In this document: piece after piece, positions 54,676 to 62,162 of the stretch
How positions within the stretch are numbered: position 1 is the first letter of the stretch
Layout: each line of letters starts with the position of its first letter
From: Bdellovibrionales bacterium
GTDB lineage: Bacteria > Bdellovibrionota > Bdellovibrionia > Bdellovibrionales > UBA1609
Reading direction: 5' to 3'
DNA length: 64,000 nt
NCBI GenBank assembly: GCA_027459485.1
Contig: DAIDIG010000003.1
Coordinates: forward strand, 186,001 to 250,000
Position numbers and translations under genes: made by a program
Notes under the pieces: model-generated
The model's input: only the letters and a program-made list of their open reading frames with translations
Databases searched by the model: none
What the model was told of the DNA's origin: nothing

Positions 54676-55434
54676 TTACATGCGATCACTCCCACGGACT
54701 CTCGACCATCTAACTGCAAATCTTGCGAAAAATTCGTCCCACGCTTTCAACGCTGATCGTTCGATGTCAAATCCGGCATCGCGAAAGACTTTTGATAAAA
54801 CGGTATCATCAAGAAGGTGCATTTGTTTTGGTAGAAATTGAGCGCGCTCAGGTGCGTGAGCTGCCACATCGTCAATGAACCCTGGGAATTCAACTCCGTC
54901 TTGGCGGCGCTTTTCGTATGTCGGGATGAACGACTGAAAATTACGCAAATAAGGAGTTTCAGAGACGACAAAAACCCTTCCGCTATTTTTAGTTTTATTA
55001 AAACACCAGCGCGCTGTTTGTTTTAACTTTTCGCCATCAAAAAAATGAAGCACTCGGCAGATCAAAATATTATCCAGAGAATTGTTTTCTAAATCTTTGA
55101 ATGCGTCCGGAAAGTCACCATGCTTTGTGATAAGTCGGGCCGCAATTCCTAATTTAACCGCTTCTTTTCGGAGTAGAAATAGGTGACTTGGGTCAAGATC
55201 AATTGCGAGCACCGTTGATTCGGAGTCTTTAAGTGCCTCAAGTGTCGCAATACCAAACGCGCACCCGATATCGGCGTTAAGGCCAAGTGATCGCTTGCAA
55301 GCGTCAGCCCATGCTTTAGAAAACTCATCGAGATAGGTTGTCATGTATCCTGTGTTGTTAAGCGTTTTTACGAAGCCAAATGCATCTGGCTCTGGTATAT
55401 CGATGTCATTGATTTCGGGCATTTTGATCGTCAC
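54676..55434 (-). CDS. SAM-dependent methyltransferase, first gene of signalling operon
   Basis: 252 residues from a GTG preceded by GGGAGA; an ATG four codons later is also possible. Motif I A-D-I-G-C-A-F-G-I-A and D-L-D-P-S-H-L (acidic loop) mark a class I fold. The C terminus ends in a basic tail. The tight link to the kinase suggests a shared pathway, such as modification of the signal or of a target, but the substrate is unknown. Confidence 0.82.
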   Translation of the reverse strand: MTIKMPEINDIDIPEPDAFGFVKTLNNTGYMTTYLDEFSKAWADACKRSLGLNADIGCAFGIATLEALKDSESTVLAIDLDPSHLFLLRKEAVKLGIAARLITKHGDFPDAFKDLENNSLDNILICRVLHFFDGEKLKQTARWCFNKTKNSGRVFVVSETPYLRNFQSFIPTYEKRRQDGVEFPGFIDDVAAHAPERAQFLPKQMHLLDDTVLSKVFRDAGFDIERSALKAWDEFFARFAVRWSRVRGSDRM

Positions 55435-55571
55435 TGGACGTCTCCCGTCACCAGGGTGGTCTAAAGAATACCTGACCCCTATGCCCAGCGATTAACTTAC
55501 GCGGGTCAAACCATAGCAAATTGGTTTATAAGAATGTAGCGAAAAGTTATACAGCCGTAGTTAAGAGAAAT

Positions 55572-56744
55572 TTACCCACGCGGAAGAACCAGCTTCGTAT
55601 AATTCTCGTCCGGCCAAATAAAAAGTGAGCGAACCTGGTCGCCTAAGTGTTTTCGCAAGCGATAGCTAGCGGTGTGGCGGACCATTCCGAAGTAGGAATT
55701 AGTGGACGACCGTAAGCGCTCTAGCGCTTCAGGGCTATACCCATTTGGGTTCATCTTCCACTGAGCCACAATACTTTTAACTCGATGACTAGTTCGCCGT
55801 CTCGGGTACCGCCGATAAGGTTTATGAAAATACCCGACAAAATCAACTCCTTGATCGATAAGGCCAAGGCGTTTCTTGAATGGGTGAAGATCGAGTTTAA
55901 GATGCTCATGCAAAAAATGGCCGATCTCATCGAAGCATTTGTTCAGATACTCAGCGGATGGGTGAAGAATCATGAAATCATCGACGTACCGATAATAATA
56001 CTTCGCCCAAAGATGATGCTTAACGAATTGATCGAGTTCATTGAGATAGACGTTAGCGAAAAACTGGCTCGTTAAATTGCCGATGGGCAATCCTTGATCG
56101 GCTGAATGATTCCAGAGGCTTTTGTGTTTCGGCACACGATTAAAAGCTTCACGCTTTGATTTTAAAAAACTATTGATTCGTGGGTCATGAAATAAAACTT
56201 GCTTTGAAAGATCAAATAGCCACGGCTCATGAATTTTCTTCGTAAGAATGTCAAAAAGCGTTGGTTTTTTGATGCTGACAAAAAAATTTCGCACATCGGC
56301 GCCGAGGTAGTATGCGGGTTCTTTCCAATTTCTTGTAATGGACCTCATTCCCGCCCAAAGTGCATTTGAGCCGGCAAGCGCCCCTCGTCCAGGAATGCAT
56401 GCGAATGTGTTGTGGATGAAGCATGGGTAAAATCTAGGGTACAGTCGATTATAGATCACATGATGAACTATGCGATCACGGAACGTCGCGGCCCATATCT
56501 CGCGGATGTGCGGTTGCTCGACCACAAATGCGACAGTCTGACCGATTTGATAATTCCCGTCGAGAAGATCCTGATAAAGGTCAAAAAGATTCCGTTCTAA
56601 ATCAAATTCGAACTCGAGCTGGTAGATCGTGTCTCGCTTGTGTTTTCGGCAGTCGAAATAGGCCTTGGCCACTTCTTCAAATGTTAACGGCAATTGACAC
56701 CCCGATAGAAGGGAAACGGGGGAGAGCTTTACTTCCGCACACAT
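55572..56744 (-). CDS. DGR reverse transcriptase
   Basis: 390 residues from the ATG at 56744, which lies inside the template repeat. The start may be further along (L-P-L-T-F-E-E starts the conserved part). Motifs: G-A-D-V-R-N-F-F with the first catalytic Asp 150; Q-G-L-P-I-G-N-L-T-S-Q at 217-227, the I-G-x-x-x-S-Q signature of diversity-generating retroelement RTs; and Y-V-D-D at 253-256. A basic C-terminal region follows. It copies the template RNA with adenine mutagenesis. It is last in the order target, avd, template, RT on this strand. Confidence 0.95.
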   Translation of the reverse strand: MCAEVKLSPVSLLSGCQLPLTFEEVAKAYFDCRKHKRDTIYQLEFEFDLERNLFDLYQDLLDGNYQIGQTVAFVVEQPHIREIWAATFRDRIVHHVIYNRLYPRFYPCFIHNTFACIPGRGALAGSNALWAGMRSITRNWKEPAYYLGADVRNFFVSIKKPTLFDILTKKIHEPWLFDLSKQVLFHDPRINSFLKSKREAFNRVPKHKSLWNHSADQGLPIGNLTSQFFANVYLNELDQFVKHHLWAKYYYRYVDDFMILHPSAEYLNKCFDEIGHFLHEHLKLDLHPFKKRLGLIDQGVDFVGYFHKPYRRYPRRRTSHRVKSIVAQWKMNPNGYSPEALERLRSSTNSYFGMVRHTASYRLRKHLGDQVRSLFIWPDENYTKLVLPRG

Positions 56745-56847
56745 CGAACAAGATTTGTGTTGTTCTTGTTGTTGTTGTTCTGGTTGCCAGTCGAGAATTT
56801 CTGGTTGTCGGCGTTATTATTATTGTTCTCCGTCGAAGACCAGTACC
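56730..56847 (-). repeat. DGR template repeat (TR)
   Basis: 118 bp, same strand as the RT. It is identical to the variable repeat at 57536-57653 except at 12 bases, all adenine in this copy. Read in the target frame it has 14 Asn codons (AAC/AAT), which is typical of templates. The last 22 bases (toward 56731) are unchanged between copies, as for an initiation-of-mutagenic-homing site. The upstream side after 56847 has no further match to the target gene. Confidence 0.95.
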
Positions 56848-57087
56848 CGGCAAAAACTTTTGCGATGAGTGTCTCCTTGCTGAACCCGCCGATTACTCAG
56901 CCGGCTCAACCGCCTTCAGTTACAAACCTTAGGCGATACAGGTTGGATTTAAATATCCCAACCGCACCCATCCCGAAGTATTAGATTGCACGCTGAAGTA
57001 GGCCATGACCCACTTCACTCCGGCCTCTCCCCCATTTCTAAGTAAACAAGAAAGCTTTGTGTTTGATGGAAGTCAAGGGAATGTCAT

Positions 57088-57438
57088 TTATTTACTTTTG
57101 CTGACTGATTTTTTCCACCCTTGCGCTTGTTTACCTAACGATTCGGTCATCTCTACGATGGATGCATATGGCTTGGTTGAGATGAGCTTGAGATCATGAC
57201 AAAGGCGAACGAGTAGCTCCAGAACTTGCAGTCGTTCGAGAAGACGTTCGATAACTGGCGCTTTGTTCTCGGTCGAATTGGCTCTGTAAATCAACACGAC
57301 CATCTCAATCACTTCATCATTCATCTTTTGGCCAAGTGTAAATTTGAAATCGCGAGGGAATTCTTTTGTCGCTTTCACCACTCGCTGTAAAAGCTCGTAG
57401 CTCAAGCGATAGATTGGCAAATGTCTGTACTGGGCCAT
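57088..57438 (-). CDS. avd: DGR accessory variability protein (Avd-like)
   Basis: 116 residues of the four-helix-bundle family (bAvd/S23-like): P-I-Y-R-L-S-Y-E-L-L, F-P-R-D-F-K-F-T-L-G-Q-K-M, L-L-V-R-L-C-H-D-L-K-L-I. In known DGRs a pentamer of Avd binds the RT and RNA. The basic surface (K-K at the C terminus) agrees. It lies between target and template as in BPP-1-like layout. The intergenic region 56848-57087 holds part of the probable template RNA and no gene. Confidence 0.9.
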   Translation of the reverse strand: MAQYRHLPIYRLSYELLQRVVKATKEFPRDFKFTLGQKMNDEVIEMVVLIYRANSTENKAPVIERLLERLQVLELLVRLCHDLKLISTKPYASIVEMTESLGKQAQGWKKSVSKSK

Positions 57439-57486
57439 GACAGATACTCCAAAGAGCGCGAGCGAAATTTAACAAAATTTTAAGCG

Positions 57487-57503
57487 ACCCGGCTTCGCCG
57501 GGT
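57487..57503 (-). repeat. GC hairpin downstream of the variable repeat
   Basis: ACCCGGC and GCCGGGT form a 7-bp perfect stem with a GAA loop on the minus strand, 33 bases after the target gene VR. In the BPP-1 DGR a GC-rich stem with a GRNA-type loop close to the VR end increases retrohoming. Here it is further away but could play this role, or act as a terminator (no T run follows). Confidence 0.6.
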
Positions 57504-57531
57504 AAAGGGAAATAATTGAATGACTAAATAA

Positions 57532-59544
57532 TTAATACTTCCGCACACATCGAACAAGAAATGAGTAGTTCTTGTAGTAGCCGTTCTGGTTGCCAGTCGA
57601 GAATTTCTGGTGGTCGGCGTTATTAACATTGTACTCCGTCGAAGACCAGTACCAACTCCCACTCGTATTGAAGTTCCCGATAACGCCATTGTTGTTATAG
57701 AGAACATTTAGTTCTGATGCAGCAGGCAAATACCAGTCTGTGTGACCGTCTGTACCGCTGCCTGAGTTGAGCCCGGCACAGTCTTCGGCGGCAATGTAGG
57801 GGTAATCAGCGTTACCCGTGAGCGCATTCAAGTCAGAAGTATTGGTCGCGCCCGTTACGCCACTTGTGACGTTAGTCGTTGTGTAGCTGGTTGATCCATT
57901 GTTCCAACTCAAACCTACCGCGCTGCCCGTGCAGGCCGTACCGTTCCAGGTCTGACCGTAATCACAAGGGGTTGTGTACATCGGGTTATTGCCGTCGGGT
58001 GAGACGCCGGCGTAAATAGTACCGTCAGCGCAGCGTGTGCCAATCGCGGCCGTTTCGGTAGCGCCATAAGAGCAAGTGCCTGTTGTTGTCGCTCCCCAAA
58101 CGCTACCGCCGCCACCGATAATCATCGTCGCGTTGTTTGTGACTCCGCCGGCCGCATTGGTTGTTTGTTCAAGCTCGACGTAATCGCCATTTTGAATCGA
58201 GCTTGGCCCCGTCGTCCAACTCTGTAAAACCGTGGTGCATGCCGAGTCGCTGCAAATCCGGTATTCTGGGCTACCCACACCTGAGATACTTGTCGGTACA
58301 AGACAGTTGATGCCGGTAATCTGCACAATGTTTGATGTCACAAGCGTTGATAGCGATTGATTCGCAAGATTTGTGAATGAAAACGCCGCAGGAGTCGCGC
58401 TGCTACAGGCCGCCGCCTGAACGGTGTTCCATGCCGTGCCGTTACAAAACTCCAAAATGTTCGTCGTTGTGTTATAACGAACTGTGCCCTTATTTGTGCT
58501 CGTGCAACTAGCCGATGTCATGCCCATACGGACACCACCATTTACATCGAGCGCAGCTTGCGGCGTGTTCGTATCAACGCCAAGCTCATGATTTGTCGAA
58601 TCCCAGTAGAAATTCGTCGCATCGCTCGAAAAATTAGACCCACCGCTGAGTTGCACAGCACCCGCCGCTCCACTAGGCGCGGTGGATGTGCTGGTCGGAA
58701 GTGTCTGTGTCGTCGTGCCGTCATAAAACTTAATTAACTTCGCCGTTGAGTCGAACCACACGCTGCCGGATGTTGGCGATGTCGGCGGGCTTGCCGTTGT
58801 GTAATTTGGTAGATCCGTCGCACCCGTTGACGATTGTGGCGTGAAATTGCCGCTACTTACCGATTGTAAATTTGTGTAGCTTGAGCCTGTAAATAGCGAA
58901 TTGAGATTGGCTTGTGTGAGTTGCGCTCCACCTGATGTATTAACCTGAAGAAGTTGCGAGGGGCTTAAGCCCTGTAGCGTATCTGCAGTTTGTGCTTCGA
59001 CGGCGGTCGGTACGGAACTCAGAATCGTGTCGGGAGAAAGTGTGTCGGCAACTCCCGTCGCTGACGGCGTGACCGTAATTCTGAAATATCGAGTGTCACC
59101 CATAGTTGGTGTGTAGGTTCCTCCCGTGCACGTTTGCCCTGGCGCACTATTACCCGTGATAGCCGTCAAGTTTTGATAAACTTGCGCCATCGAATTACCA
59201 GGGTCGCTCGCCGTTCTTTGGGCCGCTCCCGTAGCAGAGCCAACTTGAATATTGAAATAACCGTTTGTTGAACTCGTGTTCACAGTTTGTTGCTCTTCGT
59301 ACAAAATGCAAGTTTTTGACGGATCGAGAATGTCGAGCGTGAGTTTCGCCGCCGGATCAAGGAGCGGATTTTGCGTGCCCACTTGCAAAAGCTGACCATC
59401 GAGCGTGAAGGATTGCGGGACTGATGTGGAAGTTGTAGCATAGACGCGTTGACCGAGTAAGATTGCGAGAACGAACGTCGTCAGTAACGAAACCACTTGC
59501 GCAAACGAGCGACTAGGAGATGGAACTAACGTGAACTGGCTCAT
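57532..59544 (-). CDS. DGR-diversified secreted fibre-like protein with DUF1566 end
   Basis: 670 residues. An N-terminal signal or anchor helix (residues 14-35: F-A-Q-V-V-S-L-L-T-T-F-V-L-A-I-L-L-G) precedes a Thr/Ser/Asn-rich mature protein with modules like phage tail fibres and large surface proteins of this lineage (G-S-V-W-F-D-S-T-A-K-L-I-K-F-Y-D; L-G-V-D-T-N-T-P-Q-A-A-L-D-V). Residues 545-670 look like a DUF1566/C-type-lectin-fold domain (D-W-Y-L-P at 603-607, Y-W-S-S-T-E at 632-637); the VR occupies 631-670. Diversity would fall on an exposed ligand-binding face. The start codon has only a weak ribosome-binding site. Confidence 0.88.
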   Translation of the reverse strand: MSQFTLVPSPSRSFAQVVSLLTTFVLAILLGQRVYATTSTSVPQSFTLDGQLLQVGTQNPLLDPAAKLTLDILDPSKTCILYEEQQTVNTSSTNGYFNIQVGSATGAAQRTASDPGNSMAQVYQNLTAITGNSAPGQTCTGGTYTPTMGDTRYFRITVTPSATGVADTLSPDTILSSVPTAVEAQTADTLQGLSPSQLLQVNTSGGAQLTQANLNSLFTGSSYTNLQSVSSGNFTPQSSTGATDLPNYTTASPPTSPTSGSVWFDSTAKLIKFYDGTTTQTLPTSTSTAPSGAAGAVQLSGGSNFSSDATNFYWDSTNHELGVDTNTPQAALDVNGGVRMGMTSASCTSTNKGTVRYNTTTNILEFCNGTAWNTVQAAACSSATPAAFSFTNLANQSLSTLVTSNIVQITGINCLVPTSISGVGSPEYRICSDSACTTVLQSWTTGPSSIQNGDYVELEQTTNAAGGVTNNATMIIGGGGSVWGATTTGTCSYGATETAAIGTRCADGTIYAGVSPDGNNPMYTTPCDYGQTWNGTACTGSAVGLSWNNGSTSYTTTNVTSGVTGATNTSDLNALTGNADYPYIAAEDCAGLNSGSGTDGHTDWYLPAASELNVLYNNNGVIGNFNTSGSWYWSSTEYNVNNADHQKFSTGNQNGYYKNYSFLVRCVRKY
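57536..57653 (-). repeat. DGR variable repeat (VR)
   Basis: 118 bp at the 3' end of the target gene, ending five bases before the stop codon is complete. It equals the template except at 12 positions: N638Y, N640V, N645H, N655G, N656Y, N657Y, N660Y, T661S, N662F of the target (template residue to present residue). All changes occur at template adenines (A to T, G or C). The final part (L-V-R-C-V-R-K) is unchanged. Confidence 0.95.
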
Positions 59545-59614: not shown

Positions 59615-59658
59615 TCAAAATGAAACACGAAGCGTAATACGACCAAAGTAATATGGTG

Positions 59659-59692
59659 TTGACTCCAGTTTACTTGCATGTAAACTGGAGTC
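59659..59692 (+). promoter_or_regulatory. Promoter with operator-like inverted repeat, leaderless start
   Basis: TTGACT (59659-59664) and TAAACT (59681-59686) are 16 bases apart. The -10 ends six bases before the ATG at 59693, so the transcript may begin at the start codon. A perfect 13-bp inverted repeat (59661-59673, 59680-59692; half-site GACTCCAGTTTAC) with a six-base spacer covers the whole promoter, which suggests an operator for a dimeric repressor. No Shine-Dalgarno is present. Confidence 0.6.
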
Positions 59693-60829
59693 ATGTCCAT
59701 TTTAGACAGGACTGCTTTTTTAGATCAAATCCGTAAAGATTTGCAAAAGAAAATGGTTTTTATCGGTGGGCCAAGACAAGTTGGCAAAACGACGCTCGCA
59801 CAACAGCTGCTCCACAATTATCGCGAAGGACACCCCGGATACTTAAATTGGGATAATCCAGAGCACCGTCGAAAAATTTTAAATGGCGAATGGCCGCGTG
59901 AACAGAAGCTCATTATTTTTGACGAAGTTCACAAGTTCAAGAATTGGCGCAATTTGATAAAAGGTTACTACGATACTTTCAAGAAAAACCACCAATTTCT
60001 AGTTACAGGGTCGGCCAGGCTCGATTTGTATCGAAAAGGCGGCGATTCGCTTCTGGGCCGCTATTATTATCATAGGCTCCATCCGTTTCATGTGGATGAA
60101 TTGCCTACCAATGTAGCCGCCAAACTATTTCAATTTGGCGGCTTTCCAGAGCCGTATTTGACTAAAGACCCAACTGAACTCAAACGTTGGCATTTACAGC
60201 GGCGTGAGCGAGTGATTTACTCTGACGTTCGCGATTTTGATTCAATTAAAGACATTAGCATGATGGATTTATTAGTTGAGGCGCTGCCGGTTCGAGTGGG
60301 TTCGCCGCTTTCACGCAAAGCGCTCTCCGAGGATATTCAAGTCGATCAAAAGACGGTCGAACGGTGGTTGCAGATTTTAGAGCGAGTTTATTATATTTTT
60401 CGACTTAGCCCGTTTGGGGCGCCGAGAATAAAAGCCGTCAAAAAAGAACAAAAAATGTATTTGTGGGATTGGAGCGAAAACGACAATCTCGGCAAGCGTT
60501 GGGAGAATTTTATCGCAAGTTTACTCCTCAAGTACTGCCACACACTTGAGGATCGGCGTGGTGACAAGATGGAGTTGCGATATCTGCGCGATCAAACGGG
60601 TCGTGAAACTGATTTTGTCGTGACTCGGAACCGACGACCATTGTTCGCAGTCGAAGCGAAACTGAGTGACCGCATACCTGACCCCACACTAAGATATTTC
60701 TCTGAGCGCACTAATATCCCGATTTTTATTCAAGTGTTTCGTGAAGGTTCGGGGATTAGCCTCACTGAAAAAGTGAGCTCGATGCCGCTAAGTGAGTTTG
60801 CACGGTTTTTGAACAATGTAGAACAATAA
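59693..60829 (+). CDS. AAA_14/DUF4143 ATPase
   Basis: 378 residues. The P-loop G-G-P-R-Q-V-G-K-T-T stands at residue 26, Walker B L-I-I-F-D-E-V-H-K follows, then sensor T-G-S-A-R. The C-terminal DUF4143 half includes a nuclease-like segment (E-T-D-F-V-V-T..A-V-E-A-K-L) with D and E-x-K residues. Members are common near mobile DNA and in variable regions, with no agreed function. Its promoter is covered by a long inverted repeat. Confidence 0.88.
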   Translation: MSILDRTAFLDQIRKDLQKKMVFIGGPRQVGKTTLAQQLLHNYREGHPGYLNWDNPEHRRKILNGEWPREQKLIIFDEVHKFKNWRNLIKGYYDTFKKNHQFLVTGSARLDLYRKGGDSLLGRYYYHRLHPFHVDELPTNVAAKLFQFGGFPEPYLTKDPTELKRWHLQRRERVIYSDVRDFDSIKDISMMDLLVEALPVRVGSPLSRKALSEDIQVDQKTVERWLQILERVYYIFRLSPFGAPRIKAVKKEQKMYLWDWSENDNLGKRWENFIASLLLKYCHTLEDRRGDKMELRYLRDQTGRETDFVVTRNRRPLFAVEAKLSDRIPDPTLRYFSERTNIPIFIQVFREGSGISLTEKVSSMPLSEFARFLNNVEQ

Positions 60830-60986: not shown

Positions 60987-62162
60987 ATGGCAAGCGTCCA
61001 CCAACTTTTAGTTAATCGCGGAGCGCGGAAAATTGCGGCGGTCTTTTGCGCCGTTATCGTGACGTTTCAGCCTGCTTTTGCATCGACGGCCTCTGCGACT
61101 CCGGCAGTGGCTCATTCTGCGGATCATACAGCCGCACTCGTTCATAAACGTTATCATGTTAAATGGGACAACCCGAAGTTTGTTCAGCTCATAGGTAATG
61201 AGCGTGGCCGATTTATCTTCGAAGGCAAAACGATGCCGGGCGCGAAGATCGAAATTGAACGCGGGGCTGTGTCGATTGATGCGCGAAGAGGAATTAGCAA
61301 TCTCACAATTACGGAGATGGCACCAAGTCAGCGGCAAACTATTTTCGGACCAAATGCAATTATGATGGGACCAATTATCAAAGAATTTATGGTCGGGCCT
61401 AGCGGTCGGTTTAAAATATTTCTGACCTTGCCATTAGCATATGCTGATATTCCATTTAAAGTCACCCTGAGCCATTCTCGCGTCGAGAATTACGTGATTG
61501 CGATGAAGTTTGATAAAAAATTAATATCCGCTGCGATAGAAGCCAAAACAAAAAAACAGGGTATGTGGAGGTTCGGTCTCGAAGCGCGCTCGGTCGCCTA
61601 CTCGCAGACGAACATGAGTAATCTCAACGAAACAATGCTCGCCGCTCAAATTTCTTACGAGCGGCAGTTTACAAAACGTTGGTCATTTCGAACTCAGTCG
61701 TTCATTGACATAGCCAGAGATACCCCATTTACGACAACTCAAAGTGACGTGTCGGCTCGCTTTTGGGGATTAAACTCGGATTTTATTTACTTTGTTCCGC
61801 TGCGCTCACCTAAATGGTCGCTCGGCGTCGCGGGTGGATTTTATTACATGACAATGTTCCCGTCGGGGCAAAGTTTTGGGTTTGGCAACATGTGGGGGCC
61901 GGAACTATTTCCCATTTTACGCTACTCGCGCAGTAGCAAAAACATTTTTGATTTCTATTTCAGGTATGCTCCAGCAGGTTCGCAAATTACGACAAACTTC
62001 ATGAGTCATGAATCAGCCGTCGGCGGTACATGGCAAAAGCTCTACAACAAAGATCGAAGCATTTCGCTTAATGTTGAGTTTCTACAAGACGAATTTATCA
62101 ATGGTGATGTTTCTACGAAATCGAATGCTATAAATTTCGGAGTGTCGTATGGGGTGCCGTAA
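60987..62162 (+). CDS. Probable outer-membrane protein
   Basis: 391 residues with a signal peptide (I-A-A-V-F-C-A-V-I-V-T-F-Q-P-A-F-A-S). An N-terminal periplasmic part (residues 45-180) has a K-F-V-Q-L-I-G-N-E-R-G-R-F-I-F-E-G-like beta domain. From about residue 195 amphipathic strands rich in aromatic residues form a barrel-like end. No known family. It may be part of a cell-surface module with the lipoprotein downstream. The 157 bases before it show no promoter I can name. Confidence 0.75.
   Translation: MASVHQLLVNRGARKIAAVFCAVIVTFQPAFASTASATPAVAHSADHTAALVHKRYHVKWDNPKFVQLIGNERGRFIFEGKTMPGAKIEIERGAVSIDARRGISNLTITEMAPSQRQTIFGPNAIMMGPIIKEFMVGPSGRFKIFLTLPLAYADIPFKVTLSHSRVENYVIAMKFDKKLISAAIEAKTKKQGMWRFGLEARSVAYSQTNMSNLNETMLAAQISYERQFTKRWSFRTQSFIDIARDTPFTTTQSDVSARFWGLNSDFIYFVPLRSPKWSLGVAGGFYYMTMFPSGQSFGFGNMWGPELFPILRYSRSSKNIFDFYFRYAPAGSQITTNFMSHESAVGGTWQKLYNKDRSISLNVEFLQDEFINGDVSTKSNAINFGVSYGVP

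Follow-up and report, generated by a model that had tools for sequence, protein, structure and literature searches.

The diversity-generating retroelement (DGR) of Bordetella phage BPP-1 has the gene order mtd-avd-TR-brt, with adenine-specific differences between the template repeat (TR) and the variable repeat (VR), and its VR lies at the C-terminus of a binding protein with a C-type-lectin fold and is followed by a GC-rich hairpin (PMC3240598). The hairpins of phage DGRs have stems of 7-10 bp and GRNA loops, are situated 4-34 bp from the VR and are required for homing in BPP-1 (PMC3240598). Mosaic adhesive trimer (MAT) fibres are displayed on the surface of B. bacteriovorus, where one of them binds prey glycans, and the trimer of the fibre Bd2740 has been likened to Mtd (PMC10769870). 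No DGR on MAT fibres is described in that publication, in which DGRs appear only within the title of a reference. The stretch of 64,000 nucleotides analysed here (contig DAIDIG010000003.1, positions 186,001 to 250,000), hereafter called the window, is from a Bdellovibrionales bacterium and contains a complete chromosomal DGR, an established kind of machine, whose target gene encodes a fibre with a MAT base. The MAT fibre as a DGR target is the novel part of the locus; it was not found described, and no link between DGRs and MAT fibres was found, in the literature searched.

The locus resembles BPP-1 in its gene order, its Avd protein, the adenine-specific difference between the repeats, the C-terminal VR on a protein of C-type-lectin fold and the hairpin past the VR. 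It differs in residing on a cellular chromosome with a MAT fibre as target, whereas BPP-1 is a phage, and in its spacing: in BPP-1 no gap separates avd from the TR, and brt is preceded by a spacer of 144 nt containing the Rfam RNA Phage_DGR (RF03022), whereas in the window a leader of 240 nt separates Avd from the TR and only 36 nt separate the TR from the reverse transcriptase (RT) gene. The proteobacterial RT-15 DGRs of Pseudomonas, Janthinobacterium and Gallionella are alike in having an RT with approximately 48 % identity, A-biased repeats and a structured RNA between Avd and TR, the same place as the window leader, but the leader gave no match to Rfam RT-15 and resembled RT-7 weakly. With the Bdellovibrio MAT fibres, exemplified by Bd2740 (PMC10769870), the target shares a MAT-N base scoring above the NCBIfam cut-off and a tip modelled with the C-type-lectin fold; the genus taken as Bdellovibrio yielded no DGR RT of the window type. 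The best match of the tip, both in sequence and in fold, was the C-terminal domain of Legionella Lcl (8q4e), a protein which, unlike the target, has a collagen-like stem.

Components of the retroelement

TR and VR form an ungapped direct repeat of 118 nt with 90 % identity, in which all 12 mismatches are at TR adenines (8 A>T, 3 A>G and 1 A>C). Adenines make up 46 of the 118 bases of the TR (39 %), which gives a binomial p of 1.2e-5 for 12/12 mismatches at A, and no non-adenine drift between the repeats was seen over the 118 nt. The changes are all in codon positions 1 or 2; AAY accounts for 14 of the 40 TR codons, and in 26 codons of the tip the first or second position holds a mutable adenine. 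A genome-wide search with the TR returned the TR itself, the VR and one of the repeats of another DGR (DGR2, see below), the rest being at chance level, so that no further remote VRs were found above that level.

The preliminary description, made from the letters of the sequence, had proposed a complete DGR with intact-looking core parts, consisting of a fibre-like target with a C-terminal variable repeat, an Avd-like protein, a TR and an RT, in this order on one strand. All four parts were located in that order on the minus strand (Table 1), and the repeat at the 3' end of the target has the adenine-only differences expected of a VR. All genes and the VR frame are open, and the RT motifs named earlier, IGNLTSQ and YVDD, are both present and intact. 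The Avd protein was identified as such by PF22296 (7e-16) and phrog_3206, 'Avd protein of DGR' (2.5e-30), and also matched NF033474 (3.3e-19, under the curated cut-off of that model). The hairpin flanking the VR, the structured RNA leader and DGR2 elsewhere in the genome were not in the preliminary description.

Table 1 Features of the DGR locus in the window, in the order of the minus strand
Feature	Position	Strand	Remarks
DGR target, 670-aa fibre	57532-59544	-	Probable signal peptide; MAT-N base; linker modules; tip with Lcl_C domain of C-type-lectin type
MAT N-terminal domain, residues 35-202	58939-59442	-	NF053851
Lcl_C / C-type-lectin tip, residues 543-668	57541-57918	-	PF07603 and fold matches of the tip model
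VR	57536-57653	-	Last 40 codons of target; residues 631-670 of 670
Post-VR hairpin	57487-57503	-	Begins 32 nt beyond VR; GC-rich stem of 7 bp with loop GAA
Avd accessory protein, 116 aa	57088-57438	-	PF22296, NF033474, phrog_3206
Structured RNA leader	about 56831-57024	-	Covariation; model R1; sub-threshold Rfam RT-7
TR	56730-56847	-	118-nt repeat match to VR
DGR RT, 373 aa	55572-56693	-	Start TTG 56693; mechanical open reading frame (ORF) extends to 56744

The start codon of the RT was set at TTG 56693 because an N-terminal alignment of five sister RTs begins at MxLxFxE; a start at ATG 56744, inside the TR, was ruled out by this N-terminal homology. The RT matched phrog_1423 (1.1e-101), in agreement with its earlier assignment. 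In the PDB its best match was a reverse transcriptase, 8ub7 (2.3e-32), which we take to be the RT of the BPP-1 DGR, whereas the best group II entry gave 4e-8 and a 'retron-type' entry 3e-5. In a maximum-likelihood tree, a branch with 100/100 support divided the DGR RTs, that of BPP-1 among them, from the group II RTs found in the same order. The tree covered DGR and group II RTs, and the comparison with retron RTs was made through the PDB and NCBIfam. Among the genomes and viruses scanned, the 160 nearest RT loci included 136 with an adenine-biased repeat pair.

Residues 35-202 of the target matched NF053851, Bdello_MAT_N (3.4e-30; 105 bits, curated cut-off 60), and residues 543-668 matched PF07603, Lcl_C (3.8e-11), which agrees with the fibre-like character first ascribed to it. 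Of 141 genomes from the order to which the host belongs, 103 contained the MAT-N family, compared with none of 14 control genomes, as befits the Bdellovibrio-like genome of the preliminary description. A model of the tip only, as a monomer, was obtained from 11 tip sequences with a mean pLDDT of 76; an earlier model from four sequences was poor (pLDDT 41) and was discarded. The tip model matched the Legionella Lcl domain with a Z of 11.3, the Bdellovibrio MAT tip Bd2740 (8oks) with a Z of 9.9 (1.6 A over 87 residues) and BPP-1 Mtd (1yu3) with a Z of 7.3. As a Z below 8 may reflect merely a common arrangement, the match to Mtd is weak by itself. By its similarity to described MAT fibres, the target would be displayed on the cell surface and form trimers, and it may bind prey.

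Hairpin and RNA leader

The post-VR hairpin has the sequence ACCCGGC-GAA-GCCGGGT (57503-57487). Equivalent hairpins were found in all six cassettes compared, namely that of the window and five sisters, with the loops GAA, GAA, GTA, GCA, GTTA and GTTA, and their stem sequences differ, except between the two cassettes of genome G066.

In the leader, 89.6 % of the cells of the proposed helices pair in the alignment of six sequences, compared with 40-52 % when the helices are slid, and 26 pairs are changed on both sides, compared with 14.3 in shuffles; some excess pairing is expected, because this alignment also served to derive the structure. Three core helices pair in 100 % of cells, and a long-range helix to the 3' flank of the TR is weaker (77 %). 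Covariance model R1, which has the window sequence in its training set, matched positions 56831-56996. As a partial control, the six-sequence covariance model recognised three DGRs outside its training set (L046, 1e-5; L054, 3e-5; L043, 5e-4), the matches being immediately 5' of the TR or RT. Rfam RT-7 (RF03028) matched positions 56975-57024 below threshold (27.5 vs 116.8 bits) and with its 5' part only. RF03022, the BPP-1-type DGR RNA, had no match within 55400-57700, whereas the BPP-1 control scored 104.7 bits. The RNA platform of this DGR may lie 5' of the TR, clamped to the 3' flank of the TR.

Sister cassettes and genomic surroundings

The genome contains a second complete DGR, DGR2, with target, Avd, TR and RT (L028 5393-8834; G000:C3:23393-26834), in which 8/8 mismatches between TR and VR are at adenines. 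By inspection its target has a lipoprotein-like anchor, and its tip module is 45 % identical to that of the window over 295 aligned positions. The two TRs differ at 12 sites without A in either, and at 11 of these each VR has the base of its own TR, the twelfth lying at the repeat end. The repeats of each DGR have thus evolved in concert, a pattern expected when bases other than A are faithfully copied, time after time, from TR to VR, and this suggests that each TR supplies its own VR. An origin of DGR2 as a recent duplicate of the window DGR was unsupported, since its RT joins that of G030 (100/78) and the TRs are 84 % identical.

Sister elements are present in three other genera, represented by G030, G008 and G066, the last with two cassettes. 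Pooled over the six cassettes, 65 of 71 mismatches are at adenines, and a single clade (99/94) unites the RTs of the five cassettes that could be tested. MAT-N was above the cut-off on the targets of G030 and on both targets of G066, which together with the window cassette makes four of the six with a MAT-N base. The target of G008 is cut by the contig end, and a MAT-N fragment is found at the end of another G008 contig, which is consistent with, but not proof of, one split gene. The RT of G005 belongs to a distant lineage. The same tip was found in an alphaproteobacterial metagenome-assembled genome (MAG) on a short secreted protein, next to Avd and RT genes. The tip and its DGR thus seem to travel jointly from one anchor, and one phylum, to another, provided that the MAG was binned correctly.

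Several further observations were made on these relatives. The G066 targets have frame shifts inside the VR (L031 8852-8987 and L032 1610-1663), with length differences of 1-2 nt from the TR, which may be real or may be assembly errors over a mixed VR population. In an alphaproteobacterial MAG (L045 1-9093), a fibre ORF of >3000 aa has stem repeats of the GIGTTSP type and a DGR-variable tip 56 % identical to that of the window. Among other DGR lineages of the order, one (L222 6974-9660, G136) has two tandem targets per one TR and another (L224 6989-11401, G117) several mutually related VR-like repeats.

Within approximately 20 kb of the window DGR there are genes for a two-component sensor and regulator, a methyltransferase, an AAA_14/DUF4143 protein and KhpA, as well as, by inspection, Ffh, TrmD and RNase HII. 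The DGR was considered as prophage cargo and this was rejected, the neighbours being chromosomal and no phage structural genes being seen within approximately 20 kb, where the annotation covered part of the ORFs. Paralogues of approximately 400 aa adjoin both DGRs (60987-62162 and L028 4119-5405; 40 % identity, 5e-99). They had no match in Pfam and are possible partners or anchors of the diversified targets. TraC/VirB4-like type IV secretion genes downstream of DGR2 (L028 10563-15771) suggest that it adjoins a conjugative or integrative element. Beside the 5' end of the window target, an inverted repeat (59649-59704) with 28-nt arms, 82 % complementary and without a gap, spans the start of the AAA_14/DUF4143 gene and is a possible operator.

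Mechanism, alternative explanations and biological meaning

The Avd gene, leader, TR and RT gene would be transcribed together, in this order. The leader and the sequence just 3' of the TR would fold as a platform for the RT-Avd complex, and the leader, clamped to this 3' flank, would play the part of the BPP-1 spacer. By analogy with BPP-1, the RT would copy the TR and misincorporate opposite adenines, and the complementary DNA would overwrite the VR at the 3' terminus of the target gene, aided by the hairpin. Rounds of this process would be repeatable, because the TR stays intact. The resulting fibre would keep an unchanging MAT base at the cell surface while its lectin-like tip, with 26 mutable codons, varies, and the tip variants displayed on the trimer would bind different cells.

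Judged from its sequence, the DGR is complete and very probably functional, and we are fairly confident that it hypermutates an adhesive fibre tip, a confidence that does not extend to prey as the ligand. Some observations weigh against this reading. The post-VR loop is of 3 nt (GAA) rather than the 4-nt GRNA of phage DGRs (PMC3240598), the element was found in no other genome of the same genus among those examined, and the host genome has four MAT genes, compared with up to 23 in the genus taken as Bdellovibrio. DGR2 has a lipoprotein-like anchor instead of a MAT fibre, and present activity is not visible in single consensus genomes. This last point, together with the VR showing 12 of 46 possible adenine changes, would fit an intact-looking but inactive DGR whose TR/VR pattern is a fossil of past activity. 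We regard such inactivity as unlikely, given the open genes and VR frame, the intact RT motifs, the conserved hairpin and RNA pairing, and the lack of drift outside adenines, since the non-A sites of an unused pair would be expected to drift; the DGR would still be active at present. It is extremely improbable that the RT is that of a group II intron, a retron or another system (DRT/Abi) and the repeat a coincidence, although the best NCBIfam model is a group II model (84 bits, cut-off 300) and generic PADLOC RT models match the protein. Avd, the adenine-only repeat and the PHROG and PDB matches all argue against it, and the group II origin, which the preliminary description had named as what would overturn it, is refuted by the RT tree split and by the repeat pairs at the nearest RT loci. 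For retrons the distinction holds in the PDB comparison, while the separation in the tree covers group II RTs only.

The ligand of the tip is most plausibly prey or other bacterial cells, prey being favoured because of the MAT base. The DGR lineage could then be a device for prey-range evolution in Bdellovibrio-like predators, a mobile cassette of lectin tip, Avd, TR and RT fused to MAT bases, in which prey-recognition fibres are hypermutated much as in BPP-1 host switching; we put this forward tentatively, as a reading that falls somewhat short of an even chance. The tip could also have uses other than binding prey, since a sister cassette is on a lipoprotein-like anchor, and as the tip with its DGR is also on the short secreted protein of the alphaproteobacterial MAG, the tip module is not bound to predation. 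A genuine DGR on an adhesive tip might instead serve for binding particles, biofilms or kin, or as an anti-phage surface decoy, and most cellular DGR targets are believed to act at the cell surface in binding particles, cells or viruses (PMC8144416). Such a use is a substantial possibility but on balance doubtful, as the MAT-N family on which four of the six cassettes are built has so far been linked to prey handling (PMC10769870).

Broad prey recognition by predatory bacteria is an open question, for which MAT fibres are leading candidates. Targeted hypermutation on a MAT tip, recurring across genera, suggests a way, open to testing, in which binding specificity could change rapidly in a predator-like lineage of cells, and the diversified tips are a natural library for identifying tip ligands. 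The leader before the TR and the scant spacer after it provide a contrast to BPP-1 for the priming of DGR reverse transcription. By such a process the bacterium may continually renew what it can grip.

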